Source: Candidatus Hadarchaeales archaeon (GTDB taxonomy: Archaea; Hadarchaeota; Hadarchaeia; Hadarchaeales; WYZ-LMO6). From it: 64,000 nucleotides of DNA. The stretch's first letter is position 1, and every line of letters begins with the position of its first letter. The notes under the pieces were generated by a model that saw only the letters and a list, made by a program, of their open reading frames with translations, was not told where the DNA came from and did no database searches. The position numbers and the translations under genes are program-made. The DNA is taken from NCBI GenBank assembly GCA_038736355.1, contig JAVYML010000003.1:302397-366396 (forward strand), read 5' to 3'. Of the stretch, positions 4,257-25,087 are shown piece after piece.

Positions 4257-5651
4257 TTACTTCCAGTGCTCGGCCAAGAACTTGGGGATGCCCGAGGAAT
4301 CCCTGGGCCCTATCATGACCTCCCACTCGAATCCCAACAGCTCCTCCAGTTCCCCCTTGTACCTGGCCGCCATTCCAGGTAGGATGACCTTCCTGTGCTT
4401 GACCTTTTCTTTCACGTTGGAGGCTTTGATGGCATCGGCTATGGTCTGGGCCGTCATCTTCCTTCCGGCGATGGAGGACTCCACGCTGAGACCACCCGTA
4501 TCCACCACGATGAGATAGGAGGGAACCTTCGAGTTTTCTATGTCACTTGCCACGGTGAAATAGGTGAGGGCAAAATTGGAGGTGACCATGACGGGAGAAT
4601 TCTCGTTCACTTCCCCGATGGCCCTCATCCCTGGCTCCACGCTGACGGGCTTCCTCGGATCCGTATAGATGTTCTCCCTCAGGATGATGAGGGGAAGCCA
4701 GGTCCAGATTTCTTCAGATTTCAGGATAATGAGGTCCGCATATCTGACCATCAAGATGGTGGCTAGGGCCGTTTCTTCCCAAGCCAATTCCTCGGGCTTC
4801 CTTCCCCCGTCCTCCCAGACCCTGGCGACGGAAGCTATCAAGGGAAAGCCCACTTCCGGATCTTCCCCCCTGATGGCAGTGTTCCTCAGAACGGTGAAAC
4901 AGTTCACCGTCTCCTTCAGCATCTCGCCGAAACCCGCCCCAGGATCCAAGAGGAGATCCTGGAGACCCCAGTTCATCATGGTCTTGGCCATCGACTTCAG
5001 GGTCTTCAGATCGAAGGGAGAATAGAGGGCAAGAGGACACTGGTACTTCAAAGCCAGTTCTCCCATTTCCTTCCAGTTCTCCTTGGTGGCGGCGTAAAGG
5101 AGTGGTCTTCTATCCTTCACGAGGGAAACTGCCTTTTCCATCACTCCTGGGTCGGTACACCAGAGCACCAGCGGAAATTTGGTGAGGGAAGCCTTTCTGA
5201 CGGTGGCCTCGAACTTGGAGGGGTCTCCCGAGACATACCTTGGAGCCAGCATGTCCAGCCTCAGGGTCTTCCCTATGTAGGAGTATCCGTATTCCTCCAC
5301 CTTCTTGATCCTCTTGAGCAGATCTACCTCGGAAAGGGTGTCCTCCAAGGTTAGGGCCAAAGGAACGGGGTTGAAATACCTGTATTCGTGCCTTCTCACC
5401 ACCAGCTGCCCACCCACCTTGATATCTCCTATTTTTACTTCCTTCACGGGAGGTTTCAGCATTTCCTGCAGTTTTTTAAGGTTGGCCTCCTGTCCCTTTT
5501 CCCACAGAGGAGGACATTCTTCAAGTGAAATGGTCCTCTCCGCCAACCTGGCGGCAAAAGCCATACAAACACCCGGTTCACACTTACCACAGTTGGTTTT
5601 GGGGAGGAGGGCATAGATGTCCAAAGGTCCAATCTTCTTTTTGGCTGCCAT
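4257..5651 (-). CDS. cdhE: CODH/ACS gamma subunit, large subunit of the corrinoid iron-sulfur protein
   Basis: A 464-residue protein. The N-terminal four-cysteine motif (C21, C24, C29, C46, in KTNCGKCEPGVC) binds the [4Fe-4S] cluster. A TIM-barrel domain follows that binds methyl-H4MPT, then a C-terminal corrinoid domain. It pairs with CdhD and carries the methyl group from the pterin to the A-cluster of CdhC. The start abuts the cdhD stop, and a GGGGTGA ribosome site lies within the cdhD end. Length and motif are normal for the archaeal subunit. Confidence 0.96.
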   Translation of the reverse strand: MAAKKKIGPLDIYALLPKTNCGKCEPGVCMAFAARLAERTISLEECPPLWEKGQEANLKKLQEMLKPPVKEVKIGDIKVGGQLVVRRHEYRYFNPVPLALTLEDTLSEVDLLKRIKKVEEYGYSYIGKTLRLDMLAPRYVSGDPSKFEATVRKASLTKFPLVLWCTDPGVMEKAVSLVKDRRPLLYAATKENWKEMGELALKYQCPLALYSPFDLKTLKSMAKTMMNWGLQDLLLDPGAGFGEMLKETVNCFTVLRNTAIRGEDPEVGFPLIASVARVWEDGGRKPEELAWEETALATILMVRYADLIILKSEEIWTWLPLIILRENIYTDPRKPVSVEPGMRAIGEVNENSPVMVTSNFALTYFTVASDIENSKVPSYLIVVDTGGLSVESSIAGRKMTAQTIADAIKASNVKEKVKHRKVILPGMAARYKGELEELLGFEWEVMIGPRDSSGIPKFLAEHWK

Positions 5652-6818
5652 TCACTTCACCCCTATCCAGGGCATGAAGGTAGGCTCACCCTTTTCTCCC
5701 ATGAGCCACTTTATCACATCCTTCATCGTCCTGATGGCTGCGGGATGCAGGGTGATGTAGAGATCGTTTCCAGCCATGAGCATGGCGAGGGCCATCGCCG
5801 TTTCCCACATGGGACCCCTGTACTCCCTGGGACCCATTTCCGGATTGTGTAACCAGGCCTCCCTCGCCCCCCAAGCATTGGCGGTGGCCGAACCCATGGG
5901 ACATTGGAGTTCTGCATCTCCCATGAGGGCTGCCAGCCTAATTCTTTCCATAATGGAGAAGGCATATTCTATCCCATACCCAAGGGGGGCAGAGGTGGGA
6001 TCGATCACTATCTGTTCCTTGGGTAGATACTCGTACAACCTACGGTTCAGTTCCTTCGCCTGGGCCATGTCTATGGAAGTCCAGGCCAAAACCACGTGAC
6101 CGTATTGCTTGGCAGCCTTCGCCACGGGTTCCCACATGTCCAAGTTGGCCGAGCTCAAAAGTACCCTCTCCCCCTCGCAGACCTCTGCTATTTTGGGAAG
6201 GAGCTTTGCATCCTTCTCGGGGTTCCCCGATCCTCCCACGATCAGTGGAACATCCACGGCCTGCAAGATGTTCTCCACCAGCTTGCAGGATTCTTCTATG
6301 GGAGTGTTCTTGGAATAGGGATCGCTGCTGACGAGCTCTATGTCCACCAGATCCGCACCGAACTTCTCCACCGCCAGCTTTGCCCACTTGATGGGATCTT
6401 CTATGGCATCCCCCAGTACCGCCCTAACGGGTCCTGGCAAGGGAACAGGCATGTCAAAGACATCACCTGCAATGGCTGGAGGATTGGGAAACTTTCCTTC
6501 CAGGAAGTGCCAAGGTGGAGCCGTTTCTCCCCCTATTTTCACAACCTTCCTCCTCGTTCCTCCATCGGCACTGGTCGCTCCCAGTGTAACCTCCGCTATG
6601 GAGCCTGGATATTCTTGCACGAAGGGAGAGAACTCGGCCTCCAACAGGGAAAGGGGCTTGGCTGGGACAGCCTCTTTGACCGGTGGTGGGACCACGGTCA
6701 TCAAAGGCCTGAAAATGAACCTTAGTTCTTCTAGAGTGAGATCCACCTTCTCCAGCTCGAGTTCATTCATTTCCCCCAACAGCCTCAGGATCTCATCAAG
6801 TGGGGAACCTTCCGTCAC
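5652..6818 (-). CDS. cdhD: CODH/ACS delta subunit, small subunit of the corrinoid iron-sulfur protein
   Basis: A 388-residue TIM-barrel protein of the CdhD/AcsD family, with characteristic stretches such as LGATSADGGTRRKVVKIGG and the region around VDIELVSSDP. It forms the heterodimer with CdhE that presents methyl-cobamide to acetyl-CoA synthase. It lies 12 bases after cdhC and directly abuts cdhE, so the two halves of the corrinoid protein are coupled. Nothing unusual was seen in the sequence. Confidence 0.95.
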   Translation of the reverse strand: MTEGSPLDEILRLLGEMNELELEKVDLTLEELRFIFRPLMTVVPPPVKEAVPAKPLSLLEAEFSPFVQEYPGSIAEVTLGATSADGGTRRKVVKIGGETAPPWHFLEGKFPNPPAIAGDVFDMPVPLPGPVRAVLGDAIEDPIKWAKLAVEKFGADLVDIELVSSDPYSKNTPIEESCKLVENILQAVDVPLIVGGSGNPEKDAKLLPKIAEVCEGERVLLSSANLDMWEPVAKAAKQYGHVVLAWTSIDMAQAKELNRRLYEYLPKEQIVIDPTSAPLGYGIEYAFSIMERIRLAALMGDAELQCPMGSATANAWGAREAWLHNPEMGPREYRGPMWETAMALAMLMAGNDLYITLHPAAIRTMKDVIKWLMGEKGEPTFMPWIGVK

Positions 6819-6830
6819 CCTCTTCCTCCT

Positions 6831-8276
6831 TTATCCCTTTTTCTTCTCCACCCTTCTGATGATCATCTTCTCGGCGAAGATCTTGGCATTCTTCAGCACG
6901 ATTTCGAACTCCATCCCACCAGCACCCGGCACTCCCACGGTAAGGGTGGGGGCCAACATGGGCGCACCTTCCGCAGGCGCTTCGGGAGCAGGTGCGGCGG
7001 CGGCTTCCTCGGCCTCCACCCCTTTCAATCCCTTTACACCCAATTTCTTCAGCTCCTCACTGGGCTCGACGATGGGATGATTATGGGCTTTTAAAAAGGC
7101 CTTGAGCTCTTCAATGTTCTTCACCTCTTCTTCGGTGGGTATCTTGTCCACCACATCCTTTGGTATGAAGTCCTTCACCCTTTCTTTGGCCTCCTTGGGA
7201 ATCCAAACCACCCTCTTCCATCCACCATCTGCCTGGAGGAACTTCGGAGATCTCATGTATTCGAACGAGATACCATGAAAGCCATCCACCTGCCTCCCTC
7301 CTGCCGTGGAATCCGCCATGGTAGAGAAAGGAACCCCGTTAACGGCGGGGCCCTTAAAGTCCCTGTGCACGATTCCCAATCCATCCACTTCTGGAATGTA
7401 GAAGGCGATAGCCTCAAAACACCCACAGGAAGTGTGCGGATAACCGAAGGCCGTGTAAAGCTGTACCCTTTGCACTGCCCCCAGGCTCTTGGCTTTAACA
7501 GATTCATTGGCCCCCTCCCACTCCCCCTTGAAGGGATCTATAACTTTCCCTATCTTGACTTCGTAGATGGGGCCCTTAGGATCTATCTTGGAGGCCGCCC
7601 TCCCATCGAACCAACTTATAGCACCGCAATTGGCATACCTTTGGGGTGTGATCACGCACACATGGGTAGGGGCGAAGGATTGACAGAGGGTACATCCATA
7701 GAAAACATCCACTTCTTCGTCCTTTAGGCCCCTTGCCCTCGCATCCCTAGCCTCATAAACTTTGAGGGCCTCAGGATAGAGCTTAGCCACTTCGGCCGGA
7801 TCCGTATAGAAAGTAACTTGAACTCTCTCGATGATGGGACACTCGCTGTGGTAGAGCCTGATGATCACCGCTCCCAGATGCTTCAGGGTGAAACCTTTCT
7901 GCACCGTCTTTTTGCTCACTCTGCACCAGATCGTGTTCCTTTGGTTGAGGTGCATGAAGCCCTCCACCCAGTTGGTGAAGTAGTGGATTCTCCTCTCGAA
8001 AACACCCTCCATCTCTTCCTCTAGGTCCTTTCCACCCACCTCCACCAAGATGGCAAAAGGAGTCTTGGTTCCTTCTGGCATGTCCTTGAAGTCTGGACCC
8101 ACTACCGTTACCTTTCCATCCTCCACCTGCTCTAGAGGTCTCACCCTCAAAAGTTCAAACTTGTGGGGAACATCCGGTCCACCCAGCTCCGCATGCATGT
8201 CCCCCTTCCTTATTCTCTCTCCCTCGTACACCACCCCTACGTCCACGGGGATGTCCGCGAACATTCCCGACTTCAT
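6831..8276 (-). CDS. cdhC: CODH/ACS beta subunit, acetyl-CoA synthase
   Basis: A 481-residue archaeal-type acetyl-CoA synthase, lacking the N-terminal CODH-docking domain of bacterial AcsB. The A-cluster ligands are in place: C195, C198, C207 and C217 for the [4Fe-4S] part, and the CGC motif (C284, C286) for the distal nickel. It joins CO, the methyl group from CdhDE and CoA into acetyl-CoA. An Ala/Pro-rich linker (about residues 410-445) separates a short C-terminal extension, as in methanogen CdhC. It overlaps the cdhB stop by 4 bases. Confidence 0.97.
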   Translation of the reverse strand: MKSGMFADIPVDVGVVYEGERIRKGDMHAELGGPDVPHKFELLRVRPLEQVEDGKVTVVGPDFKDMPEGTKTPFAILVEVGGKDLEEEMEGVFERRIHYFTNWVEGFMHLNQRNTIWCRVSKKTVQKGFTLKHLGAVIIRLYHSECPIIERVQVTFYTDPAEVAKLYPEALKVYEARDARARGLKDEEVDVFYGCTLCQSFAPTHVCVITPQRYANCGAISWFDGRAASKIDPKGPIYEVKIGKVIDPFKGEWEGANESVKAKSLGAVQRVQLYTAFGYPHTSCGCFEAIAFYIPEVDGLGIVHRDFKGPAVNGVPFSTMADSTAGGRQVDGFHGISFEYMRSPKFLQADGGWKRVVWIPKEAKERVKDFIPKDVVDKIPTEEEVKNIEELKAFLKAHNHPIVEPSEELKKLGVKGLKGVEAEEAAAAPAPEAPAEGAPMLAPTLTVGVPGAGGMEFEIVLKNAKIFAEKMIIRRVEKKKG

Positions 8277-8800
8277 TTTTCCAGCTCCTCCGCTATTTTT
8301 TCCAGGTTTTTATACCATTCCTCCGCGGAGAGGTTGGGGAAGGACCAACTACAATGAGGCTGATAAAATCTATTTAAAGATATCGTTCGCAGGTGGGGTG
8401 CAAAGGACTTCAAACCTGAACCCATCAGCCACTCCATGTAATAGGGACCCAAGCCCAGCATCAGCACTAGATCGTGGGGCTGCCCGTCCCCATGCAGGCT
8501 CCACTTGGGATCCGTGAGTCTCGAGCATATCTCCACCATGGCCATTCTAGCGGCCGGTTGTAATCCCCTCTTCTTGAGCTCCATGGCCATTTGTGCCGTC
8601 GCCACCACCGGCACCTTTCCTGCCTTGGCTATCCTCACGGCGTAATCCAACGGTTTTCCTCCCTCTTCCTTCAGCGCCTCCGTCCCTACCACGAAGAGGG
8701 GCCGCTTGGCCCTTTTGATGAGAACTGCTACTACCTCAGGCCTGGTGATGAGCACCGCCTTCACGGGTCCTGGAATCTCAGCCTTCTGCCACGGCTCCAC
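8273..8800 (-). CDS. cdhB: CODH/ACS epsilon subunit
   Basis: A 175-residue protein with the Rossmann-like fold signature of CdhB (RPLFVVGTEAL, and VATAQMAMELKKRG). The subunit forms the alpha2-epsilon2 CO dehydrogenase component with CdhA. Its exact role is unsettled; an electron-transfer or cofactor-binding role has been discussed for methanogens. It sits between cdhA (1 base away) and cdhC (4-base overlap), the standard archaeal order. Confidence 0.93.
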   Translation of the reverse strand: MEPWQKAEIPGPVKAVLITRPEVVAVLIKRAKRPLFVVGTEALKEEGGKPLDYAVRIAKAGKVPVVATAQMAMELKKRGLQPAARMAMVEICSRLTDPKWSLHGDGQPHDLVLMLGLGPYYMEWLMGSGLKSFAPHLRTISLNRFYQPHCSWSFPNLSAEEWYKNLEKIAEELEK

Positions 8801-8801
8801 T

Positions 8802-11156
8802 TCATCCCTCCTTTACCCTGATGAGCCTGGGAACTAGGGTGGGATCGGGATTGGGATTTTCAAATTCCTTCCACCCTTTCTCTTTGAGGAAGGCCATTAC
8901 CTCCTCCTTCATGGTCACTGGGATGTCGGCCACCGTCCTCACGAAAAGATGGAGATCATCCGGAAGGTCTCCGAAAAGCCTGCGGTGCAGGTCTATGTAA
9001 TGGTTCAGCTTAATGGACCTGCCCTTGGTGGTATCGCTGGCCCTCATACAAAGCTTGGGAATGGCCACCATGGCCTCTTCCACCGTTTCCGCCATGAAGA
9101 AGAGGTGCTCGGGAACGGGACCCACATAGGCCTCCTTTCCCGTTCTAGCATCTATCACCTTCCAAACCTCTCGATCTTCCTTCCTACCCAGCAAGGCCCT
9201 CCTGTATTTCGAGCCATGAGGTCCTACGATTACAGGGATTCCCAGTCTCCAGAATCCGCTGGCTATGGAGGAGGCCTTCTGGGAGTAAGCTCCCCAGGCC
9301 ACGCCCACCGCTCCCACCCTGTTATGGATGTAATCCGCTATTTCCTCGTAGTTGGCCCTCAGCCTGCGTTTGGCGAAGATGCTGGCGATTTTGATGGCGG
9401 CACCGGCTATGTGGGAATTGGAGACACAGGAGCCACAGTTCACGATTCCTCCCGCATCAAAGACCCCGGGATAGGTCTCGTAAAGGCTTTGCCCGTTTTC
9501 ATCCCTGTACATCCCTATGGCCATCGCCGAGCATCCTGTCGTACAGATGATGTACTTCCTCCTCGCAAACTCCTCCGCCATCCTGGCCACTTCCTTCCAG
9601 CTCCCCGGAAAGTTGGAGCAACCCACGAAAGCTACTACTCCTGGGATCTCGCCCATGACGATGGGTTGACCCACCCTTCTTATTTCGATGTCCTGAATGG
9701 CTCCCCTCCCCGTCCTCATCTTGAACTTCTCTTCCGCAATTTCTCTCCGATGGGCCCCTACGATAAGGGTATGGGGCTTTATCCCGACGGGACAAACCCC
9801 CTCCTGCTCGCATTTCCCACATCCGACACAGGGCTCGTAGAGGTCTGAGAGGGGTTTGAGGTTCCCCCTCCCCGCCTCCGCTAAAGCTTCGGGAATGGGA
9901 AGGGTGTTCGGGCATGACCTCACACAAGAGAAACAGGAAGTACATCTTCTAGACTCCTCCATGAGCCTCTCCTCCGTGGGGATAAGGCCCATCTTTCTCC
10001 TCTTGGGGGCTATCTGCATCGCTACCTTCACCGCTACCTCTCCAGCTTTTTCAGGATCCAGGATGGCAGCCCCAGGAAGTTTGCCTTCCACCAAGTCCTC
10101 TACGATTTGATCCACGGGATCTTTGGTCCTGTCCGGAAGTCCCTGCAGGTTCTTGTAGTGGGTAGTGATGAGGACTGCATTCACCTTTTGGGCCTCTTGC
10201 AGAATGTCCGTCCTTATGCATTGCTCATCCACCATGATCACATCCGCCACACCGGACCTCACGAACCTAAGCTGAAAGGAAATGGGCCCCACGATCTTGG
10301 CCTTTCTGGAATACCTGCTGAGATCGATGGCCGTACAGCAGATCCCGCAGACCTCTACCTTGTCCTCCAGGCCTGCCTTGGCCAAGTAATCAGCCACCCC
10401 TATCGCGGGTGGTACATTGTGTCCTATCACCAAAATCACGGGTTTGGAAGAGTCTATTACCCCCATCCCCAATTCCACCAAATGAGCCTCTGGATCGGCC
10501 TTCGGAAAACCGAAAGCCGAAACCTGGGCGATGTCCGCCACCTCCATCACAACGTGGTCTATCATACCAGCGTGGAAGACCTTGGACTCAAAGTCTAGGT
10601 TGTCTCCCTCCTGCCCCGTATGAACACAGGAGAGGAGATGGACGAGTTCCGTTTCACAATAATCCAGCACGTCCTCCAAGTCCCCCAGGGTCCTGGGCTT
10701 TATTCCCGTAACCAGTCTGATGATGGGGGCTTCCAAATACACGTTTTCCCCACCCACATCCAAGGGATAATCTCTCCCGTACTTCTCTATGAGTTCATCC
10801 AACATGTGCCTCGCATGCCCACAGTGGGTAGAGGCTCCTATGCAACAGGAGAGGAGAACGATCCTGGAGAGTTGACCTCCCATGTCTATACCACAAGCTC
10901 CCCTCTTGCCCTTGCTGAGATCACACTTTCCGAAGGTACAGAGACAACAGAGATCACAAAAGGGGAGGTAGAAGGGCTTGTACCTCTTGAGGAGTCTTTT
11001 ATCCCACTCCCGGAGGGAGGCTATGTCCGGCATTGGGGTGGGACCCTCTTCCTCCTCCCACTCTCTGGCCACTCTCCCCAGACTCAGTTCGAAACCCTTT
11101 GCTTTCAGCCAAGGAAGCTGGAGTTCATCCGCTCTGATCCGAAGTTTGGAACCCAA
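8802..11156 (-). CDS. cdhA: CODH/ACS alpha subunit, nickel CO dehydrogenase
   Basis: A 784-residue archaeal CO dehydrogenase. The cysteine set at C67-C88 forms the D/B clusters. A two-cluster ferredoxin insert (C405, C408, C411, C415 and C443, C446, C449, C455) is typical of the archaeal enzyme and absent from bacterial AcsA. C-cluster cysteines and histidines follow in the C-terminal half. It interconverts CO2 and CO and passes CO to CdhC. The start codon is TTG at 11156, supported by a strong GGGAGGGGGG site just before it. As first gene of the operon it carries the promoter at 11211-11225. Confidence 0.96.
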   Translation of the reverse strand: MGSKLRIRADELQLPWLKAKGFELSLGRVAREWEEEEGPTPMPDIASLREWDKRLLKRYKPFYLPFCDLCCLCTFGKCDLSKGKRGACGIDMGGQLSRIVLLSCCIGASTHCGHARHMLDELIEKYGRDYPLDVGGENVYLEAPIIRLVTGIKPRTLGDLEDVLDYCETELVHLLSCVHTGQEGDNLDFESKVFHAGMIDHVVMEVADIAQVSAFGFPKADPEAHLVELGMGVIDSSKPVILVIGHNVPPAIGVADYLAKAGLEDKVEVCGICCTAIDLSRYSRKAKIVGPISFQLRFVRSGVADVIMVDEQCIRTDILQEAQKVNAVLITTHYKNLQGLPDRTKDPVDQIVEDLVEGKLPGAAILDPEKAGEVAVKVAMQIAPKRRKMGLIPTEERLMEESRRCTSCFSCVRSCPNTLPIPEALAEAGRGNLKPLSDLYEPCVGCGKCEQEGVCPVGIKPHTLIVGAHRREIAEEKFKMRTGRGAIQDIEIRRVGQPIVMGEIPGVVAFVGCSNFPGSWKEVARMAEEFARRKYIICTTGCSAMAIGMYRDENGQSLYETYPGVFDAGGIVNCGSCVSNSHIAGAAIKIASIFAKRRLRANYEEIADYIHNRVGAVGVAWGAYSQKASSIASGFWRLGIPVIVGPHGSKYRRALLGRKEDREVWKVIDARTGKEAYVGPVPEHLFFMAETVEEAMVAIPKLCMRASDTTKGRSIKLNHYIDLHRRLFGDLPDDLHLFVRTVADIPVTMKEEVMAFLKEKGWKEFENPNPDPTLVPRLIRVKEG

Positions 11157-11210
11157 CTGCCCCCCTCCCGTCTTTTTCTTCCAAGCTCACGAAATCTTTT
11201 CCTTTGAATA

Positions 11211-11305: not shown

Positions 11306-11328
11306 AGAAACTTCATTCCATCATCGTT

Positions 11329-12003
11329 ATGATAATCACGAGAGAGAAACCTTTGCAGGAAATTTTGGGTTTTCTACAACCTTATAAAAAGGTCTTGGTC
11401 GTGGGTTGTGATGGCTGTGTACAACCCCCCCGTAGCCTCAGGGAAAGCGAAAGGATGGCCTCCCTTATAGAGCTGGCTAGGAGTTCCTCCGGAAACCCCA
11501 TTCAGATAAGTGCCACCACCGTCAGCAGACAGTGCTGTGCGGAGGGATTGCAAAACCAGCTGAAGGTGGAGGGCTACGAGGCCCTTCTCTCGATGGCTTG
11601 CGGGGTAGGTGTGCAGGTCATGAACTCCGTTTTTCCCTCCCTTCCCACCTTCCCCGCCCAGAACACGCTCTTCATAGGTTACGAGACGAAGAGGGAGGGA
11701 GAGATGTTTGAAAATTGCAGGGCTTGCGGGGAGTGTATGCTGGGCGAGACGGGAGGGATTTGTCCCGTGGCTAGGTGTGCCAAAGGACTCATGAACGGAC
11801 CCTGTGGAGGGTGTGTGGAAGGGAAATGTGAAGTGCCTGTGGAGATAAGGAACTGGAAGGGGGAGGTAGTACAGACCCTCAAAAACGACTGTGCTTGGTA
11901 CCTGATTTACCAGAGGTTGAAGGAACTGAACCGTCTGGATCTCTTCCGGAAGCTCCGGCTACCCAAGAACTGGGGGATAGCCGGATACCCCAGGAGGCTC
12001 TGA
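11329..12003 (+). CDS. metV: MetV-type zinc/iron-sulfur subunit of methylenetetrahydrofolate (pterin) reductase
   Basis: A 224-residue protein of the MTHFR C-terminal (MetV) family. The N-terminal part (LVVGCDGC; then a CC pair in SRQCCAEG) precedes a cysteine-rich region, NCRACGECMLGETGGICP with further PCGGC and KCE cysteines, that binds metal or Fe-S clusters. In acetogens MetV forms the MetVF core of the methylene-to-methyl reductase and wires it to electron carriers. Here it lies one gene before metF and the tandem ferredoxin/MvhD protein, so the same role is likely. Confidence 0.88.
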   Translation: MIITREKPLQEILGFLQPYKKVLVVGCDGCVQPPRSLRESERMASLIELARSSSGNPIQISATTVSRQCCAEGLQNQLKVEGYEALLSMACGVGVQVMNSVFPSLPTFPAQNTLFIGYETKREGEMFENCRACGECMLGETGGICPVARCAKGLMNGPCGGCVEGKCEVPVEIRNWKGEVVQTLKNDCAWYLIYQRLKELNRLDLFRKLRLPKNWGIAGYPRRL

Positions 12004-12930: not shown

Positions 12931-12937
12931 TGGGAGG

Positions 12938-14834: not shown

Positions 14835-15415
14835 AGCTGGCCCTGTTGATCCTGGCCGGAGGAAGGAGCGAGAGGTGGGGGAAGGAAAAGGCGCTGGTGG
14901 AGGTGGAGGGTAAGCCCCTCCTCCTCCATGTACTGGAGAGACTGGAGGGACTTTCGGAGGAAAGGATCATCTCCTCCAAACCTGGTTTGGGGTTGGAGGT
15001 AAGGGGGGTAAAATTGGTGGAGGACTTTTCGGAAGAGAAGGGGGCCGTGATAGGTCTTCTGAGTTCCCTACCCCAAGTACGCTCCGAGTACGTGGCGGTG
15101 GTGGCCTGTGATCACCCCAGGGCCAACAGGGAGGTACTCGAGAAGTTGGCGGAAAGGGCTGAAGGGCGCGACGGGGCAGTGCCTCGCTGGCCCAACGGCT
15201 ACATAGAGCCCCTGTACGCCGTCTACAAAACCGAAAGCCTCCTGAAGGCGGTGAGGGAAGCTGGAGGTGAAAAGAGGCTGAGGAAGGTACTGGAGAAACT
15301 GGATATAGTTTACGTGCCCGTGGAAGAGCTGAGGGAAGCCGATCCACAGCTCGATTGCTTCTTCAACCTCAATTCCCCCGAGGACCTCCCCCTCCTTCCC
15401 CCACGCAGATCCTGA
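14831..15415 (+). CDS. mobA: Molybdenum cofactor guanylyltransferase
   Basis: A 194-residue nucleotidyltransferase starting MKLALLILAGGRSERWGKEK, the nucleotide-binding GG-R-MG-K motif of MobA. It attaches GMP to molybdopterin to make the bis-MGD cofactor. The neighbouring formylmethanofuran dehydrogenase (FwdB/FwdD) needs exactly that cofactor with W or Mo, which explains the location. ATGA overlap with cooC; the 3' end overlaps the convergent mfnA gene by 47 bases. Confidence 0.88.
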   Translation: MKLALLILAGGRSERWGKEKALVEVEGKPLLLHVLERLEGLSEERIISSKPGLGLEVRGVKLVEDFSEEKGAVIGLLSSLPQVRSEYVAVVACDHPRANREVLEKLAERAEGRDGAVPRWPNGYIEPLYAVYKTESLLKAVREAGGEKRLRKVLEKLDIVYVPVEELREADPQLDCFFNLNSPEDLPLLPPRRS

Positions 15416-17350: not shown

Positions 17351-17369
17351 GCGTGCTCCCTCAGGGGAA

Positions 17370-18323
17370 TCAAGGCCTGAGGCCCAAAGATTTTTCCAGC
17401 ACCTCTTCGTTGATCTTACCCGCGTGGAACACCCTACCCGTTTTGAGGTTGTTCACGAAGATCTCCGCGGGGGAGAAGAGTTTAGGATCTATTTTGAAGA
17501 AGTCCCTCTGGTATCTCTCGAAGAGTTCTAGGAAGGGGACTCCGTAGTCCCTGGAGGAACTGGAGGGAACCTGCTCTATCACCCTCTCCACCTCCTCGTC
17601 CTCCGCTTCAACGAAATAGACCGTTCTCCCACCGTAAAGCACACAATCGTTGGTCTTTCCCATGGCCTCGAGATCGTTCTTGGCCACGGGTGCGATGGGG
17701 GCCTTACCCAACCCGCTCACGATCTTTTGGAGCGGGAAACCCACTTCATGGAGCTTGTGGACTCCCGTCTCCACCACCCTTGCGGAGATCTGGATGCTCC
17801 CAACCAAACTGGCCGTGGGTGCCACGACCAACGTAAGGTTCTCGGGTTTCACACCGCAGCGCTGAGCCACTACCTCCGCCACCCTCTCGTCCGGGAGTTT
17901 CCTGGTTTCGAGGGTGAGCACCGCCACCTCACTCTCATCTTTATAACCGAGCTCCTCGAAGAGCTTCTCCACCCTGGCCAAGGCCCTGGCAGGGCCAGAA
18001 CCCATGGCGAAGTACTTCTCCACCTTCACCGCCCATCCAGCGTATTGGGAAGCCATGCAGGAGATGAGGGGAAAGTCCGTCCTCACGAAGACCCAGGGGA
18101 TTCTTTCCACCCTCACTTCCACTTTTCCCAGTCCGCCCATACAAATCTCCGAGAAGGCTATTCCCGCTTCCACGCTTCCGGGAACTTCCACCCCAGCATC
18201 GATTACCGTCGCACCGTTTCCCAACTTCTTTACCCTTATCTTCAGCTCCTCTTCCCTCCTCACCATCTCTTCCACTATCCTTTGGGCCCTCCTGTTCACG
18301 CTCAGCAAGTTCCTTCCCTCCAC
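17370..18323 (-). CDS. mch: Methenyl-H4MPT cyclohydrolase
   Basis: A 317-residue Mch, which reversibly hydrolyses methenyl-H4MPT to N5-formyl-H4MPT in the second pterin step. Family segments include VEAGIAFSEICMGGLG and VLYGGRTVYFVE. Length is normal (315-320). The coding start at 18323 overlaps the fwdC stop by 22 bases; an in-frame TTG a few codons in (before LSVNRRAQ) would also give a good N-terminus. Part of the fwd/ftr operon. Confidence 0.95.
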   Translation of the reverse strand: MEGRNLLSVNRRAQRIVEEMVRREEELKIRVKKLGNGATVIDAGVEVPGSVEAGIAFSEICMGGLGKVEVRVERIPWVFVRTDFPLISCMASQYAGWAVKVEKYFAMGSGPARALARVEKLFEELGYKDESEVAVLTLETRKLPDERVAEVVAQRCGVKPENLTLVVAPTASLVGSIQISARVVETGVHKLHEVGFPLQKIVSGLGKAPIAPVAKNDLEAMGKTNDCVLYGGRTVYFVEAEDEEVERVIEQVPSSSSRDYGVPFLELFERYQRDFFKIDPKLFSPAEIFVNNLKTGRVFHAGKINEEVLEKSLGLRP

Positions 18324-19120
18324 ACCAAGATTTCACCCTTTCCAGAACAGGCTAAATCCCCATCGTATCTCTCGTATTTCCCTTTTAGATGTTCTTCCCT
18401 TACGGGCAATCCCTCGCGTTGGAGGTACCGGAGGAGGAGGGGAAGGAAGGAGGGGAGATAGAGACAGCTGTACTGAAAGGTGGGAAGGAGGGGGGGTCTC
18501 TTGAAAGCCAGGATGGTTCCCCTCTCCATTCCTCCTCCCGCCCCCTCACCCATTTCTCCAAAACAAACGATCGTTCCTCCCGTCATGAGGGCGCCGGCAA
18601 AATCTCCCATTCTTCCCTCCACCACTATTATTCCCCTCCTCATCTTTTCTCCCACCTCCCTCCCGGCTTCTCCCCTCACGATGATCGTCCCTCCCTTCAT
18701 CCCCACCTTGGATCCACGATAGGCTGCCCCCACCAAGTTTCCCGCCTTACCCCTCACCTCTATCCTCCCGCCACTCATCTCCGCCCCCATCCAGTCACCC
18801 ACTTCCCCCTCCACGAAGATTTCACCTCCCTTCATCTCCCTTCCCAAATGCATTCCCACCTTTCCCTTTACCTCAATCCTTCCCCTCGTCATCCCGGCTC
18901 CCACATGCTTCACCCTGCCGAAATCACCCTCCAACCTCAGGACCTCCCCCTCCCCCCTCTCCTCCACCGAGAAGAGCTCCTCCACCCTTTTCCTCCTCCT
19001 TCCGTAGAGCACCTCCATCCTCCCTATTTCCCCCGCCGACTTACCACACAGGTGCTCAGGACTCAGGATTTCCGCTTCCACCGGAACCTTGAAGGGGCCC
19101 TTTGGTCTGAGAACGATCAC
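18302..19120 (-). CDS. fwdC: Formylmethanofuran dehydrogenase subunit C
   Basis: A 272-residue protein dominated by the right-handed beta-helix repeats of FwdC, visible as recurring GGxIxVxGxxGxxxGxxM units between about residues 75 and 215 (GRIEVKGKVG, GEIFVEGEVG, GRIEVRGKAG, GTIIVRGEAG, GIIVVEGRMG). FwdC is the scaffold that interfaces FwdA and FwdB in the CO2-reducing complex. Coupled to ftr upstream and mch downstream. Confidence 0.94.
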   Translation of the reverse strand: MIVLRPKGPFKVPVEAEILSPEHLCGKSAGEIGRMEVLYGRRRKRVEELFSVEERGEGEVLRLEGDFGRVKHVGAGMTRGRIEVKGKVGMHLGREMKGGEIFVEGEVGDWMGAEMSGGRIEVRGKAGNLVGAAYRGSKVGMKGGTIIVRGEAGREVGEKMRRGIIVVEGRMGDFAGALMTGGTIVCFGEMGEGAGGGMERGTILAFKRPPLLPTFQYSCLYLPSFLPLLLRYLQREGLPVREEHLKGKYERYDGDLACSGKGEILVWREGTC

Positions 19121-20004
19121 TTCATCACCTCCCTCAGGTAAAAGAGGTACTTGCCCAGCTTGCCCCCGTAGTTACCGGCCGAAATCCTCTTTATACCCTT
19201 AACCGAACATGCCCCCTCTATTCCCACCCTCATCGCCCTCCTCACACTCTCCTCATCCAAGCCATTGATCACTATCTCGAGCACGCAGTTAACCCCTTCC
19301 GGGACTTTGCTCTTCACCAACGGCCTCAGGGTGGGACAGTACTCGGTGTTGGTGGAAGCCCTCAAAAATTTGTACTTGGAACCCACCTTACTCCCACTCC
19401 TCACCACCCCGCCGGGGAAGGGGGCCACCACCCCTTCCACCTTCCTTATCCTCTCGACGGCCCTTTCCGCGGCCTCCAGCGTACAATCCTCATCCTCACC
19501 CAAGATGAGGAAATTCCCCCCTCCCACCGCCCTCTTTATTCCGAACTCCTCCTCAACCAAGAACTCCCCCTCCATCACGGGAATCCTCCAGAACCTTTTT
19601 CCCTCCAACCTCTTGGAGAGCTGGAAGCCATCCCCAAAGAACCTCAGCTTGGCCCCTACCTTGACGCTCTTTTCTCCCTGCAAACCGTTGAAACAGGAAG
19701 TGGTGGGACAGGTCATGATGCACTGCCCTATCCTGCGGAGGAGCTGATCCTCCAAATCCTTCTCCGACATGGCGAAGAGGAGGAGGCTCGCTCCCGGCCT
19801 GCCATCGGGGGTTTCCTGCGGACTCAGCCACCTCTCCACCCCTGCCTCCGCCCCGCAGGCTATCACGGAAGTGGCAAAGCCCGTGGCGGTGAGGGCGGCG
19901 TTTCTCACCCACTCCTCGTTCTTGGCCGTTACGATTACCCTCGCAGCCCTCATGCCGAAAGCCTCGGCGAAGGTATCTTCTATCTCCACCCCATTCACCT
20001 GCAA
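19117..20004 (-). CDS. ftr: Formylmethanofuran:H4MPT formyltransferase
   Basis: A 295-residue Ftr, starting MQVNGVEIEDTFAEAFGM, with family segments TCPTTSCFNG and KLRFFGDGFQ. It moves the formyl group from formyl-methanofuran to H4MPT. Normal length (about 297). It is inserted between fwdA and fwdC, overlapping both, so it is made together with the dehydrogenase that supplies its substrate. Confidence 0.96.
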   Translation of the reverse strand: MQVNGVEIEDTFAEAFGMRAARVIVTAKNEEWVRNAALTATGFATSVIACGAEAGVERWLSPQETPDGRPGASLLLFAMSEKDLEDQLLRRIGQCIMTCPTTSCFNGLQGEKSVKVGAKLRFFGDGFQLSKRLEGKRFWRIPVMEGEFLVEEEFGIKRAVGGGNFLILGEDEDCTLEAAERAVERIRKVEGVVAPFPGGVVRSGSKVGSKYKFLRASTNTEYCPTLRPLVKSKVPEGVNCVLEIVINGLDEESVRRAMRVGIEGACSVKGIKRISAGNYGGKLGKYLFYLREVMK

Positions 20005-21611
20005 GGTATCACCTCGCTCTTCGGGAGGTACTCCAGCTCAACGGGATAGTTTTCTAGGGAAACGGTGTAATATTTCTCGAAGTCCTGCTTGGCATCCTCG
20101 GGCAGTTCGCCGGGGGGACTCACCCAGAAGGTTCTTCCCCACACCTCCTTCACCACCTTCCCATCCTTCACCACCACTTCCCCATCCTTGATCACGTATT
20201 TGGCCCTGGAGAAGGAACCCTCGATGTCCTCCTCCTTGAATTCGTAGATGGCCACGTCCGCATCGGCCCCCACTCCCAGGTGTCCCTTTCTCTTCAAGCC
20301 GAGCAACTTGGCAGGTCCCGCCCTGGTGACGATGGCTATCTCGTAAAGGGAGTATTCCCTGTCCAAGCTTGGGAGGGTGGAGCGGGAGGAGGCTGCCCTG
20401 TGGATCTCGGAGAGGGTTTTCTCCCTAGCCCTCTTGCTCATCAGCCACTCGATCACCTTTGGATAATGGTAAAAGGGTCCGGCGTTGGGATGATCGGTAG
20501 TGAGCACCACTTTCCAGGGATCCTTCACCAAAAGGGCTACTTCCAGACCTATGGTCCATTGGACGGCATTCACCAGGGACTTGGGTTTGAAGGTATAGGG
20601 AACGATCCCAGCCCCTACCTCCATCTCCACGTCGGAATTGTACCATTTGTTTCCCGTGAGCTTGAAGAGGTTGTACTGCCAGGGACCATCCGCAGTCATG
20701 GTAGTGGCCTCCCCGAAGATGACTTGCCCCAAGTCACAGGTGGCGTTGGGCGATTCATCGATGGCCTTAGCCACCTCCGGCGCGGCGGAGGAAAGGGTGG
20801 CCCAATTTTCCCCCCCATAGGAGTTGAATTGGATGTGGGTGATGTGGACCCTTCCCCCCTGGGCCACCACCGTCTTCACCGTATCGATCACTATCCCGAA
20901 TTTCCCCGGCGTTCCCAGTTTGTTACAATGGACATGGATGGGATGGGGGAGTCCCAGTTCCTCGTTCACCCTACTCAGACCCTTTATGATCTCCCTGGGA
21001 GTCACCCCATAATTCTCCACCCTATCATCCAACCCCTCCACGTTCTTACCCCACTTCCAATTCTCCACCCCACCCGGATTCACCAGCTTGATGGCATAAC
21101 CTTTGGTGGCCTTGAGAAGCCAACCCACATAATTCCTGAGCTTCTCCCAGTTACCTTCCGCTATGTACTTCATCACGAAGTGGTTGTTGCCCATCAGGGT
21201 ATAGGCCCCCTTATCCACCATGGGTATATCGCAGAGCTCCTCGTGTACGTGTCTGGCGGTGAGGGGTGGCATGGCCGCCTCCATCACGGTGGTATAACCC
21301 AAAATGGCATACCTGTAACCCGTGACATAGGTGGTGGGGACCGTATATCCCGTCCCGCTCCTCGTCACCTCCGTCCTGGGCACGGGATCCCTGCGATGAT
21401 CCTCAGGCCTCATCAACCTTCCCAGGTTCACCTTGGACCCGGCGATATGGCTGTGGAGATCCACCCCTCCCGGAAAAACGATCATTCCGGAGGCGTCTAT
21501 GACCTCCCCCCTCGCCTCCTCCACGATTTTCCCATCTTCGATGAAGAGGTCCATTTTTTCTCCTTCGATTCCGTTGAGGGGATCGTAAACCGTTCCGTTT
21601 TTGATGATCAT
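19995..21611 (-). CDS. fwdA: Formylmethanofuran dehydrogenase subunit A, amidohydrolase
   Basis: A 538-residue binuclear-metal amidohydrolase. The metal-binding residues are visible as DLHSH, a carboxylated-lysine candidate in AIKLVNPGG, HVHCN, and TTDHPNAG near residue 385. FwdA condenses formate, made in FwdB, with methanofuran. It is slightly shorter than methanogen FwdA (about 570), with a compact C-terminus. It overlaps ftr and fwdB at both ends. Confidence 0.96.
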   Translation of the reverse strand: MIIKNGTVYDPLNGIEGEKMDLFIEDGKIVEEARGEVIDASGMIVFPGGVDLHSHIAGSKVNLGRLMRPEDHRRDPVPRTEVTRSGTGYTVPTTYVTGYRYAILGYTTVMEAAMPPLTARHVHEELCDIPMVDKGAYTLMGNNHFVMKYIAEGNWEKLRNYVGWLLKATKGYAIKLVNPGGVENWKWGKNVEGLDDRVENYGVTPREIIKGLSRVNEELGLPHPIHVHCNKLGTPGKFGIVIDTVKTVVAQGGRVHITHIQFNSYGGENWATLSSAAPEVAKAIDESPNATCDLGQVIFGEATTMTADGPWQYNLFKLTGNKWYNSDVEMEVGAGIVPYTFKPKSLVNAVQWTIGLEVALLVKDPWKVVLTTDHPNAGPFYHYPKVIEWLMSKRAREKTLSEIHRAASSRSTLPSLDREYSLYEIAIVTRAGPAKLLGLKRKGHLGVGADADVAIYEFKEEDIEGSFSRAKYVIKDGEVVVKDGKVVKEVWGRTFWVSPPGELPEDAKQDFEKYYTVSLENYPVELEYLPKSEVIPCR

Positions 21612-22873
21612 CCTCCCACCCTTTCGATGATCTTCTCCAGGATTTCCCTATCCGGCAGATAGGGGGAAGCCACGAGCTTCTTCAGCCTGAGCGGGATCCC
21701 ATCCATTCTGTAAGCCGTTCCGTCGCACTCTATACCCACTATGGCGGAAGGAATAACCACCTTCGCAAGCTTGGTGGTCAGACTCACCTTGGGATCTATT
21801 ACGATGGTGGGTATGGAAGCGAGATGACGTACGGCCCCAGCGGGGAAGTGGGCCGCAGGATCCGAAGCCAAAATGAGGGCCGCATCACACTCCCCCCTGT
21901 AAAGGAGGTCCACTGCCGAAAATTCTCCGGGATTGTAAACGGGATAACCCCTGCTGAAATTTATGGCAAAGGGATAACCGGTAAGCCAGGTGAGTACCTC
22001 ATTGGCCCCGGCGACGTTGAAGTGGCCCCTCATGGGCATGATGAGGAACTTCGTGTAATCGTTCAGATCCCTCACCAGACGGAGGGCTGCATCTATGTTG
22101 AGGTTTTTGCCCTTCGACATGGTGAGACCCATCCCGAAGAAGATGATGCCGAACTTACACCCCTTCATCCGCTCCGCCAGCTCCTTTATCTTCTCCCCCG
22201 GTACTCCCGCCGCCTCCTTCACCTCATACCCCCTCACGGCCGCCCTCAGGGCGGAAAGGAGTTCGTAATCCTTTCCTTCCTTTACCCTGATGAATTGGTT
22301 CACCATCTTCGAAGTCCTGGTTTCCCTCACGTCCACGTGAACCGTGAACCTCTCCTTCTTCCCCTGCCTGTACATCCCCAGGGGGGTAATGGAATACCTC
22401 ACGGGATGGCGGATGTGGGCCTCTGCCGGATTACAGCCCCAGAAGACCACTAGATCCGCTCTGTTCTTAACCTCGCCGAGGGTACATTTGACCGCCCCAC
22501 ATTCTTGAGCTGCCAAGACCGTGGGTCCATGACAGGTGGAAGAGGTATTGTCCAGGCTGGCACCCGTCAGCTCGGCGAGCCTGACGGCGAGCCTCTGGGC
22601 CTCCGCCTCCGTGGAGCTCAAACCGTAAATGAGGGGGAAATCTGCCTCCCTGAGGATGCGGGCGGCTTCCTCTATGGCTTCCTCCACCCTTACTTCCCTC
22701 CCATCCACCATGGGCTTGGCCCTGTCCTCGGCATGGGAAAGGAACTTCGATCTGGAAACGGGGCAAGCGTTCTTCGTGGAAAGGATTTTTCCATCCTCCA
22801 CTTCCACTTCCAGATCGTCGCAAAGGCAACCGCAGAAGGGACAGACCACGCCCTTATACAGAACCAAGCTCAC
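21608..22873 (-). CDS. fwdB: Formylmethanofuran dehydrogenase subunit B, W/Mo catalytic subunit
   Basis: A 421-residue molybdopterin oxidoreductase. C11, C14, C18 and C37 (CPFCGCLCDD and NACP) bind a [4Fe-4S] cluster. C114 in SSTCHGP lies where the cysteine ligand of tungsten sits in characterised FwdB, so this is a cysteine rather than a selenocysteine form. FwdB reduces CO2 to formate. The FwdF/FwdG polyferredoxins of methanogens are not in the window, so its electron supply is not visible here. Confidence 0.95.
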   Translation of the reverse strand: MSLVLYKGVVCPFCGCLCDDLEVEVEDGKILSTKNACPVSRSKFLSHAEDRAKPMVDGREVRVEEAIEEAARILREADFPLIYGLSSTEAEAQRLAVRLAELTGASLDNTSSTCHGPTVLAAQECGAVKCTLGEVKNRADLVVFWGCNPAEAHIRHPVRYSITPLGMYRQGKKERFTVHVDVRETRTSKMVNQFIRVKEGKDYELLSALRAAVRGYEVKEAAGVPGEKIKELAERMKGCKFGIIFFGMGLTMSKGKNLNIDAALRLVRDLNDYTKFLIMPMRGHFNVAGANEVLTWLTGYPFAINFSRGYPVYNPGEFSAVDLLYRGECDAALILASDPAAHFPAGAVRHLASIPTIVIDPKVSLTTKLAKVVIPSAIVGIECDGTAYRMDGIPLRLKKLVASPYLPDREILEKIIERVGG

Positions 22874-23246
22874 CCCTCCATCTCTTCACCAATTCCTCCA
22901 GGGGGGTGGGCTTCTCCCCCGGGGCCTTCGTAAGGCGGGCCTTCAAGCCCTTCAGGGAAGGCATGCCCGTTCCCTCCGTGAGGGGACTGGTAAGGAAGTT
23001 GGCCCAGGGACCCATCGGCATGAAAACCGTTCCCCTCTCCGTATTACCAAAAACGCATCTCACCACCACGGAACCGAACTCCGTGCTCACCCTGACCGTC
23101 TCCCCCTCCTTCACCCCTATGAGACTGGCATCCTCCGGATGGACAAAGACCACTGCCACTTTCTCAGAATATTCCGGAGAGGTTTTCCCCTTCTCCATGC
23201 TCACGCCTTGGTCCACCGTTCTACCGGTGTTCAGAAAGACTTCCAA
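22854..23246 (-). CDS. fwdD: Formylmethanofuran dehydrogenase subunit D
   Basis: A 130-residue molybdopterin-dinucleotide-binding domain (ADC-like fold), starting EVFLNTGRTVDQG and containing MPMGPWANFLTS, a signature of FwdD. It completes the catalytic unit with FwdB; in some archaea the two are fused. The start is TTG at 23246, after a weak GAGAAGG site. First gene of the eight-gene operon fwdD-B-A-ftr-fwdC-mch-mptN-mfnA. Confidence 0.93.
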   Translation of the reverse strand: MEVFLNTGRTVDQGVSMEKGKTSPEYSEKVAVVFVHPEDASLIGVKEGETVRVSTEFGSVVVRCVFGNTERGTVFMPMGPWANFLTSPLTEGTGMPSLKGLKARLTKAPGEKPTPLEELVKRWRGELGSV

Positions 23247-23270
23247 GGAAACCTTCTCTTTCCTTTCCCC

Positions 23271-23286: not shown

Positions 23287-23305
23287 TCCCATCTCATTTT
23301 GGCCG

Positions 23306-24139
23306 ATGTTTTCAAAGGTGAGGATAGGAGTGGTGAAAGTAGGGAACATAGGCACCTCCACCATGATAGATCTCCTCTTGGATGAGAGGGCGGAAAGGGA
23401 GGACATCGACTTCAGGATAGTCGGATCGGGTCCCAAAATGCAGGAAGAGGATTGTAAGGAATGCGCCCAGAAGATTTTGGAGTTCAATCCCCACCTAGTC
23501 CTGATCGTGAGCCCCAATCCTGCCCTGCCCGGACCAACCGCTGCCAGGAGAATAGTGGCTGGGGCGGGGAAGCCCGTGATAGTGATAGGGGATGCCCCCG
23601 GGAAGAAAGCGGTTCCGGACCTGGAAAAGGAGGGAATGGGCTACCTGCTGATCGAGGCCGATGCCATGATAGGGGCGAGAAGGGAATTCCTGGATCCGGC
23701 CGAGATGGCCCTCTTCAACGCCAACGTAATAAAGGTCCTAGCCGCCACGGGTGCCTTCAACGTGATCTGTGAGGAAGTGGAAAAGGCCATAGAGGGGATA
23801 AAGAAGGGTTCACCCTATTTGCCCAGGGTGGTGATCACGAGGCAAAAGGCGGTGGAAGCGGCGGGTTTCCAGAACCCGTATGCGCTGGCCAAGGCCATGG
23901 CTGCCTACGAGATGGCCAAGAAGGTGGCGGATCTTTCGGTGGAGGGATGCTTCAAGATGAAGGAGATGAAGGAGTATGTTCCCACGGTGGCTTCCTCCCA
24001 TGAAATGATGGAAACCGCGGCGAAGTTGGCGGGTGAAGCTAGGGAACTGGAAAAGGCCACGGACTCCCTCCTGAGGAGGCCCCATGCCGACGACGGCAAA
24101 CTGCTCTCCAAGAGGAAATTGATGGAAAAACCAGGTTAA
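23306..24139 (+). CDS. mtd: F420-dependent methylene-H4MPT dehydrogenase
   Basis: A 277-residue Mtd with the N-terminal VRIGVVKVGNIGTSTMIDLLLDE-type nucleotide segment (begins at residue 4) and family stretches VVIGDAPGKK-like (IVIGDAPGKK) and PHADDGKLL. It oxidises or reduces methylene/methenyl-H4MPT using coenzyme F420. Its presence shows that the host makes F420. Transcribed divergently from the fwd operon, probably leaderless. Confidence 0.95.
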   Translation: MFSKVRIGVVKVGNIGTSTMIDLLLDERAEREDIDFRIVGSGPKMQEEDCKECAQKILEFNPHLVLIVSPNPALPGPTAARRIVAGAGKPVIVIGDAPGKKAVPDLEKEGMGYLLIEADAMIGARREFLDPAEMALFNANVIKVLAATGAFNVICEEVEKAIEGIKKGSPYLPRVVITRQKAVEAAGFQNPYALAKAMAAYEMAKKVADLSVEGCFKMKEMKEYVPTVASSHEMMETAAKLAGEARELEKATDSLLRRPHADDGKLLSKRKLMEKPG

Positions 24140-24145
24140 GGGGAC

Positions 24146-25087
24146 TTGAAAGAGATTTTGGTAAGTGCCCCATCGAGATTGCATCTGGGAATCCTCGATC
24201 CCTCGGGAAGGAATGGAAGGATTTACGGTGGTTTGGGGGTTGCCCTACTGAAACCGAGGGTGAGGGTGAGGATTTCCCCCTCCTCCTCTTTAGAAATTTC
24301 TGGACCCTCGGCCAAAACCGCCAGGGAGAAGCTCTCCCCCCTCTTGAGAAGGCTGGGAGAGAGGGGGGCGAGGATAGAAATCTTGGAAAGTATTCCCGAA
24401 CATTCCGGACTGGGCTCCACCACCCAGCTCTCCTTGGCGGTGGGGATGGGACTGGTCAAGCTCTTCGGATCCAAGCTTTCGGTGGAGGAAGTGAGCGAAG
24501 TGATGGGGAGGGGATGGTTTTCGGGAGTGGGAACCCATCTCTTCAAACGGGGCGGTTTCGTGCTGGAAGGGGGAAGAAAAAAGGAGGGTGGTCTTCCGCC
24601 CCTTCTCTTCCACTCCCCCTTCCCAGAGGAATGGAAGTTCGTGGTGGCCCTTCCCCCCTCAAGGGGTTTGGATGAGAGGGAGGAACGGAAGGTCTTCGAG
24701 AGGATCTCCCCTCCCCCGGAAGAAGTGGGAAGGGCTTGCAGGCTTGTCTTGATGAAGATGCTTCCGGCCTTGGTGGAAAGGGACCTTTTGGCCTTTGGTT
24801 CCTCCCTCACCGAGCTTCAGCGGGTGGTGGGAGGCTATTTCAAAGAAGTGCAGGGGGGAATCTTTGGAAGTCCCCTCCTCGAAGAAACGATAGAGTTCAT
24901 GCTGGAGGAAGGAGCGGTGGGGGGAGGGCAGAGCTCTTGGGGACCAGCAGTTTACGGTCTGGTGGGTGGGGAAGAAAGGGCCAAAGCCTTGGAGGAAAAG
25001 GTCGAAAGGTTTTTGGAAAAAAGGGGAGGGGGAAAAGTCTTCAGCTCGGGAGTGGACAACAAAGGGGCCAGATTTTTAAGGCGCTGA
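24146..25087 (+). CDS. Beta-ribofuranosylaminobenzene 5'-phosphate synthase (GHMP-like)
   Basis: A 313-residue GHMP-superfamily protein starting MKEILVSAPSRLHLGILDPSGRNGR, with HSGLGSTTQLSLAVG as the glycine-rich loop. The family is beta-RFAP synthase (often called MptG), which condenses p-hydroxybenzoate or p-aminobenzoate with PRPP in the first committed step of H4MPT assembly. TTG start at 24146 after an AAGGGG site, 6 bases past the mtd stop, so it is an mtd operon member. The 3' end overlaps the convergent MFS gene. Confidence 0.9.
   Translation: MKEILVSAPSRLHLGILDPSGRNGRIYGGLGVALLKPRVRVRISPSSSLEISGPSAKTAREKLSPLLRRLGERGARIEILESIPEHSGLGSTTQLSLAVGMGLVKLFGSKLSVEEVSEVMGRGWFSGVGTHLFKRGGFVLEGGRKKEGGLPPLLFHSPFPEEWKFVVALPPSRGLDEREERKVFERISPPPEEVGRACRLVLMKMLPALVERDLLAFGSSLTELQRVVGGYFKEVQGGIFGSPLLEETIEFMLEEGAVGGGQSSWGPAVYGLVGGEERAKALEEKVERFLEKRGGGKVFSSGVDNKGARFLRR

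Follow-up and report, generated by a model that had tools for sequence, protein, structure and literature searches.

Among the systems described so far, the closest to the locus considered here is that of Ca. Cerberiarchaeaceae, a family of Hadarchaeota for which culture evidence from Ca. Cerberiarchaeum oleivorans has been published, including hexadecyl-coenzyme M (CoM) and 13CO2 released from hexadecane, together with a Wood-Ljungdahl pathway that operates without Mtr (PMC10811742). MetFV-HdrA-MvhD clusters have been described in Ca. Syntrophoarchaeum and a MetVF-HdrABC-MvhD arrangement in Moorella (PMC9012536), and another study has already positioned the metF of Jinze and Yellowstone Hadarchaeota beside its counterparts from Ca. 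Syntrophoarchaeum and Ca. Alkanophaga (PMC10322722). The present analysis concerns a 64-kb stretch of hadarchaeal DNA, hereafter referred to as the window, in which the genes for carbon monoxide dehydrogenase/acetyl-CoA synthase (CODH/ACS) and for the tetrahydromethanopterin (H4MPT) branch of the Wood-Ljungdahl pathway form one island, and in particular a slot between cdhA and cooC, which holds metV, metF and a gene for an iron-sulfur (Fe-S) protein with an FlpD domain in the window and, in certain relatives, the gene of a protein of 241 residues that we refer to as p241.

The genome to which the window belongs has in common with Ca. Cerberiarchaeaceae the alkyl-CoM reductase (Acr), beta-oxidation, CODH/ACS, an H4MPT branch without Mtr and membership of one Hadarchaeota family. 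However, the available part of that account describes neither gene order nor a slot for MetVF or p241, and the published relative is reported to have a single complete Acr operon, whereas acrA is seemingly duplicated around acrBG in the present genome (PMC10811742). As in Ca. Syntrophoarchaeum and Moorella, MetV and MetF are found beside an Fe-S protein bearing an MvhD/FlpD domain and canonical Mer is missing, but here this protein is a fusion of ferredoxin domains and FlpD without the flavin part of HdrA, and the module is located inside the CODH/Fwd island (PMC9012536). The portion of the Jinze and Yellowstone study at hand makes no mention of a genomic slot or of an alternative protein in sister genomes (PMC10322722), and no description of an exchange at one operon slot, or of p241 itself, was found in the open-licence literature. 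The metabolism had been described before and the island is a variant; it is the variable cdhA-cooC slot that seems to be new.

The window's genome (G000; 1.27 Mb, four contigs, approximately 96% complete) is that of a Hadarchaeon, the closest named loci to its Mch (69-88% identity) being those of Hadesarchaea metagenome-assembled genomes (MAGs) and of one archaeal MAG. It was compared within a sample of 28 Hadarchaeota genomes, consisting of four members of the island's family, i.e. G000, G026 and G027 of one genus and G025 (MAG S4B3_HD70) of the same family, and 24 others, among them G011; a further sample comprised 59 genomes of Archaeoglobi, the class of G033 and G032. Genes were called from NCBIfam and Pfam profile scans, where a score over cut-off refers to the NCBIfam family threshold.

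The island and the direction of its pathway

The island consists of cdhE-cdhD-cdhC-cdhB-cdhA on the minus strand (4257-11156), a plus-strand block of metV, metF, Fe-S/FlpD, cooC-like and mobA genes (11329-15415), a minus-strand block of mfnA, mptN-like, mch, fwdC, ftr, fwdA, fwdB and fwdD (15369-23246), and mtd with the beta-RFAP synthase gene on the plus strand (23306-25087). All five CODH/ACS subunits of an H4MPT-type Wood-Ljungdahl pathway are present, as are Fwd, Ftr, Mch and Mtd, with FwdD scoring below its cut-off, while FwdE, FwdF and FwdG were not encountered among the island open reading frames (ORFs) scanned. Every class of gene named in the original prediction is located where it had been placed, except for the corrinoid activator, which at 2616-4217 lies just outside the proposed start at 4257; the electron-transfer protein with Fe-S and FlpD domains (12938-14062) had been left off that list.

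Conservation of gene order in related genomes, proposed as a check, has been observed in three assemblies. The 104-kb island contig of G025 (JAPDJF010000003) matches the window in gene order and orientation all the way from the corrinoid protein to FrhB, apart from a few insertions. In G027 (CALJER010000014) the order is retained between the corrinoid protein gene and fwdC, at which point the contig stops, and in G026 it is retained from acsV to cooC, again up to a contig end. Because these independent assemblies concur, and G025 in particular shows the same order on a contig of its own, the objection that the contig is chimeric is ruled out. In G011, cdh and mch are found on separate short contigs and the order near mch differs, mtd being located between mfnA and mptN; the joined island therefore looks specific to one Hadarchaeota family, although the G011 assembly is fragmented. 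A cdhA over cut-off is present in all four family genomes and in G011 (there split over two contigs), and Mch in three of the four (it was not found in the fragmented G026) as well as in G011. Smaller groupings are found elsewhere too, consisting of fwd, ftr and mch alone in Methanocellales and of fwd and mch in a Bathyarchaeote, indicating that partial clustering is ordinary.

It had been suggested that no methyl-CoM reductase is present, which is true of the scanned island but false for the genome, since mcrABG-type genes are located on two other contigs. An mcrA-type gene on contig C1 (55064-56746) reaches 519 bits against a cut-off of 767.75 that two methanogen controls pass, and the 5.6-kb contig C4 carries an acrA fragment followed by mcrB (404 bits, cut-off 516) and mcrG (280 bits, cut-off 172); a canonical McrA of the methanogen type was not found in G000. 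A profile search of this genome with mtrH, the sole Mtr subunit tested, was negative while both methanogen controls were positive, and canonical mer was not found either, the best match scoring 141.5 bits against a cut-off of 348.7. Thus, of the mcr and mtr operons whose discovery elsewhere was to speak against the prediction, only the mcr half was encountered. Within the phylum, mcrA is present in all four family genomes and in none of the 24 others, and canonical Mer in none of the four (G025 carrying a more distant Mer-like protein, 202 bits) and over cut-off in 13 of the 24. As a separate observation, these 13 genomes retain canonical Mer, yet Mch was not found in 12 of them. Since all genomes of the phylum with the joined island are mcr-positive, the island is no sign of mcr absence, and an intact island without mcr nearby does not show that a genome lacks it. 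With respect to beta-oxidation, a thiolase, a MaoC hydratase and an SDR are encoded directly upstream of the window, as is a NiFe hydrogenase whose four genes include those for NAD-binding and Fe-S subunits, an acyl-CoA dehydrogenase gene lies inside it (57557-58756), and genes for AOR and an ADP-forming acyl-CoA synthetase-like protein are located beside acrA.

The finding of mcr without mtrH or canonical mer, together with beta-oxidation genes and a family-restricted distribution, argues for alkane oxidation based on alkyl-CoM reductase over CO2-fixing autotrophy, and G000 combines the Hadarchaeota affiliation, the family-restricted Acr and the beta-oxidation genes without MtrH that characterize Ca. 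Cerberiarchaeaceae. We therefore regard it as probable that this is the Wood-Ljungdahl island of that alkane-oxidising family, most likely run oxidatively. The earlier view of the organism as a non-methanogen is probably right, although its stated ground, the absence of mcr, is wrong in a genome with divergent mcrABG, and of the two directions it allowed, the reverse, oxidative one is plausible and the evidence points away from autotrophy. Acr-activated alkanes, or fatty acids, would be cut to acetyl-CoA via beta-oxidation, and CODH/ACS would split the latter into CO2 and methyl-H4MPT; MetV, MetF and the Fe-S/FlpD protein would act in place of canonical Mer, converting methyl- to methylene-H4MPT with electrons passed towards Hdr, and Mtd, Mch, Ftr and Fwd would complete the oxidation to CO2. 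The flux direction, the Acr substrate, the replacement of Mer by MetF and the electron route are what we infer from gene content and the cultured relative.

Several points weigh against this assignment: the Acr type is read from hidden Markov model scores and the published family pattern, genes alone do not reveal the direction of flux, the action of MetF on H4MPT is a prediction, the absence of mtr is judged from mtrH alone, and two family members are without metV, so that the lifestyle does not depend on the MetVF module. It appears unlikely that the island serves reductive, autotrophic CO2 fixation while Acr has another use. The enzymes concerned can work in either direction, the cluster includes genes for cofactor synthesis, a hydrogenase is encoded upstream of the window, and two Hadarchaeota without Acr are thought to fix CO2 reductively (PMC10811742); on the other hand, the joined island has been seen only in the mcr-positive family, beta-oxidation genes flank it, and a cultured family member turns 13C-hexadecane into 13CO2, according to the same publication (PMC10811742). 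Less probable still is a methanogenic or methanotrophic lifestyle based on canonical Mcr. In its favour, the genome carries mcrABG-type genes together with a gene resembling methanogenesis marker 2; against it, McrA and McrB score far under their family cut-offs and neither mtrH nor canonical mer was found in the genome. The marker 2-like gene of this genome without mtrH encodes an AIR-synthase family protein (window 55846-56790; 227 bits, cut-off 365).

The Acr genes themselves present an unusual arrangement, in that acrA is seemingly duplicated around acrBG in G000 (contigs C1 and C4) and in G026, where a single contig (C133:1568-9258) carries the C-terminal part of acrA1, orf203, acrB, acrG, orf525, acrA2 and orf194. 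About 120 bases at each end of C4 of G000 are identical to acrA on C1, while 652 core bases occur once, so that two copies have probably been collapsed into a chimeric acrA on C1; the assemblies of G025 and G027 both break within acrA. Directly after acrG on C4, orf525 (L006:3701-5278) has no Pfam match, and a paralogue of approximately 46% identity (L005:4987-6459) is located near an orphan acrA beside genes for an SCP2-domain protein and an aldehyde:ferredoxin oxidoreductase. The orf525 product is a possible candidate for the step from alkyl-CoM to acyl-CoA.

The variable slot between cdhA and cooC

In G000 and its congener G026, the slot is occupied by metV, metF and the Fe-S/FlpD gene, and metV was not found in the other 26 of the 28 Hadarchaeota genomes. 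In G027 and G025, the same position holds the p241 gene, on the strand of cooC and, in G027, separated from it by about 25 bases. Of the five Hadarchaeota genomes in which cdhA is present, G025, G027 and G011 carry p241 and the remaining two carry metV, and neither p241 nor metV was found in Hadarchaeota genomes without cdhA over cut-off. An ORF judged by eye to be transposase-like is located next to p241 in the slot of G025 (L085:17520-17942).

Outside Hadarchaeota, a p241 with 80% identity is encoded in the Archaeoglobales MAG JZ-3_D_bin_138 (G033), approximately 5.6 kb from a cdhE-cdhD-cooC-cdhC cluster. This MAG was one of eight genomes searched, of which the others (two each of Bathyarchaeota, Methanocellales and further Archaeoglobi, and one Helarchaeota) yielded no p241, and none was found in viral contigs. 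In the larger sample, 5 of 59 Archaeoglobi genomes carry p241. A Mer over cut-off was found in 48 of the 59, and the 11 genomes lacking one include every p241 carrier (hypergeometric probability 9e-5, a value that ignores relatedness). Four of these five carriers share their local gene order, which points to few independent events. Between G025 and G033, p241 is approximately 80% identical and Mch 51%, suggesting transfer between phyla or an unusual constraint.

p241 as a candidate methylene-H4MPT reductase

No match to p241 was obtained in Pfam or NCBIfam, and no credible one among PDB sequences. When a profile of eight p241 sequences was aligned with one of six MTHFR sequences, hhalign gave a score of 32.1 (E 7.5e-4) over 148 collinear columns, which was reached by none of 300 column shuffles (maximum 25.4) nor by the reversed profile (13.4); 20 control families, including CdhD, CdhE and an old-yellow-enzyme-like family, scored at most 19.8 against p241, and the Mer profile 15.1. 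An earlier comparison of p241 and MetF profiles with few sequences was negative, significance being attained only with more sequences on both sides, and as the hhalign probability is just 25%, the similarity suggests a distant kinship with MTHFR and is not proof of it.

It has been shown that Mer, MTHFR and Mfr have in common a catalytic glutamate at the end of strand 1 and an acid at the so-called position D (PMC11094777). In p241, Glu6, within the motif MKILHEFVP, and Asp92 are invariant in all eight sequences; they may be compared with jMer Glu6, eMTHFR Glu28 and hMfr Glu9, and with eMTHFR Asp120, respectively (PMC11094777). Asp92 aligns with the GD motif of MTHFR, whereas Glu6 is matched by motif only, the Mer of these Hadarchaeota having VEFVP near its start. 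The glutamine of position C was not found in p241 at the aligned FFMR stretch, where the alignment is weak, and p241 differs from Mer, MTHFR and Mfr in being shorter (241 residues) and in matching the family model of none of them. An AlphaFold model of p241 built from two sequences had a mean pLDDT of 42.7, too poor to use, and the Foldseek list derived from it, mostly of TIM barrels with E > 0.01, is not counted as evidence.

These data raise the tentative proposal, a little short of evenly balanced, that p241 may constitute a new family of methylene-H4MPT reductases, replacing Mer in Hadarchaeota and some Archaeoglobi and swapped for MetVF-FeS/FlpD within one genus. A balanced chance is given to the alternative that p241 is no reductase but either a CODH/ACS accessory or a cofactor enzyme, its pairing with the loss of Mer being phylogenetic chance. 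This alternative would agree with the presence of p241 and Mer together in G011, with the common gene order of most Archaeoglobi carriers, with the absence of both Mer and p241 from G032, and with the lack of any cdh gene from the stretch examined in four of the five Archaeoglobi. It is less easily reconciled with a profile similarity to MTHFR exceeding all shuffles and control families, with the invariance of Glu6 and Asp92, with the occupation of the very operon slot of metVF, and with the lack of canonical Mer in all five Archaeoglobi carriers.

As a putative methylene-H4MPT reductase, p241 is the most useful candidate to come out of the analysis. Near-complete H4MPT Wood-Ljungdahl pathways have been described without mer and metF in Ca. 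Methanomixophus hydrogenotrophicum (PMC7380581) and without Mer in Bathyarchaeia TB1 (PMC7886697), and such Mer gaps in archaeal lineages are read as bypasses or loss of the pathway. The occupation of one conserved operon slot by MetVF in some genomes and by the MTHFR-like p241 in others offers a concrete candidate for one kind of Mer replacement. If p241 is indeed such a reductase, the electron carrier of the methyl-H4MPT step would change from case to case. G032 (WYZ-LMO2), which has been assigned to Ca. Methanomixophus hydrogenotrophicum (PMC7380581), has neither Mer over cut-off nor p241, which indicates that other solutions or gaps exist; p241 was accordingly rejected as the answer to the gap in that species.

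Gene content and further observations

Features of the island and its immediate surroundings, in window coordinates.
Feature	Position	Strand	Basis
Methyltransferase-cognate corrinoid protein (MtaC/MtbC/MtgC-like)	1100..1750	+	Pfam B12-binding; TIGR02370 151 bits, below cut-off; syntenic in G025, G027
DUF166 protein, function unknown	1720..2619	+	Pfam PF02593; syntenic in G025, G027
RACo/AcsV-like reductive activator of corrinoid proteins	2616..4217	-	Pfam RACo domains and Fer2; NCBIfam AcsV 362 bits, below cut-off
CdhE, CODH/ACS gamma subunit, corrinoid protein	4257..5651	-	NF003195 540 bits, cut-off 306
CdhD, delta subunit	5652..6818	-	TIGR00381 408 bits, over cut-off
CdhC, beta subunit (acetyl-CoA synthase)	6831..8276	-	TIGR00316 642 bits, over cut-off
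CdhB, epsilon subunit	8273..8800	-	TIGR00315 135 bits, cut-off 101
CdhA, alpha subunit (CO dehydrogenase)	8802..11156	-	TIGR00314 1173 bits, cut-off 781
MetV, first gene of the cdhA-cooC slot module	11329..12003	+	Pfam PF12225 (DUF5981); only G000 and G026 of 28 Hadarchaeota
MetF, MTHFR-family methylene-tetrahydropterin reductase, putative Mer substitute	12004..12930	+	Pfam MTHFR E 4e-31; MTHFR domain of NF006396 218 bits, below cut-off
Fe-S protein with C-terminal FlpD/MvhD domain, resembling the C-terminal part of HdrA2	12938..14062	+	Pfam Fer4 repeats and FlpD; HdrA2 model positions 574-768
CooC-like nickel-insertion ATPase of CODH	14037..14834	+	CbiA/MinD-type P-loop domains; adjoins cdh also in G025, G027, G011
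MobA-like molybdenum cofactor guanylyltransferase	14831..15415	+	NF001457 E 3e-33; 115 bits, cut-off 164
MfnA, tyrosine decarboxylase (methanofuran synthesis)	15369..16490	-	TIGR03812 350 bits, over cut-off
MptN-like H4MPT glutamate ligase (ATP-grasp)	16487..17350	-	NF040720 257 bits, cut-off 350
Mch, methenyl-H4MPT cyclohydrolase	17370..18323	-	TIGR03120 456 bits, over cut-off
FwdC	18302..19120	-	TIGR03122 274 bits, over cut-off
Ftr	19117..20004	-	TIGR03119 454 bits, over cut-off
FwdA	19995..21611	-	TIGR03121 802 bits, over cut-off
FwdB	21608..22873	-	TIGR03129 572 bits, over cut-off
FwdD	22854..23246	-	NF042908 E 5e-30; 104 bits, cut-off 175
Mtd, F420-dependent methylene-H4MPT dehydrogenase	23306..24139	+	NF002162 403 bits, over cut-off
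Beta-RFAP synthase (H4MPT synthesis)	24146..25087	+	TIGR00144 187 bits, cut-off 113.5
FrhB/FpoF-like F420 oxidoreductase subunit, putative F420H2 outlet	26521..27591	+	NF006807 271 bits, cut-off 269; syntenic in G025

No tRNA gene was predicted by ARAGORN within the window. The MtaC-like corrinoid protein, the DUF166 protein and the RACo-like activator (window 1100-4217) form a trio that is conserved beside cdhE in three genomes; the published relative is said to be without mtaAC (PMC10811742), and a literature search on DUF166 with corrinoid proteins returned nothing useful. Between acsV and cdhE, G025 carries an insertion (L085:6095-9779) encoding FlpD, a formate dehydrogenase alpha subunit (over cut-off) and an FrhB-like protein, so that the island contains a second variable module for electron transfer.

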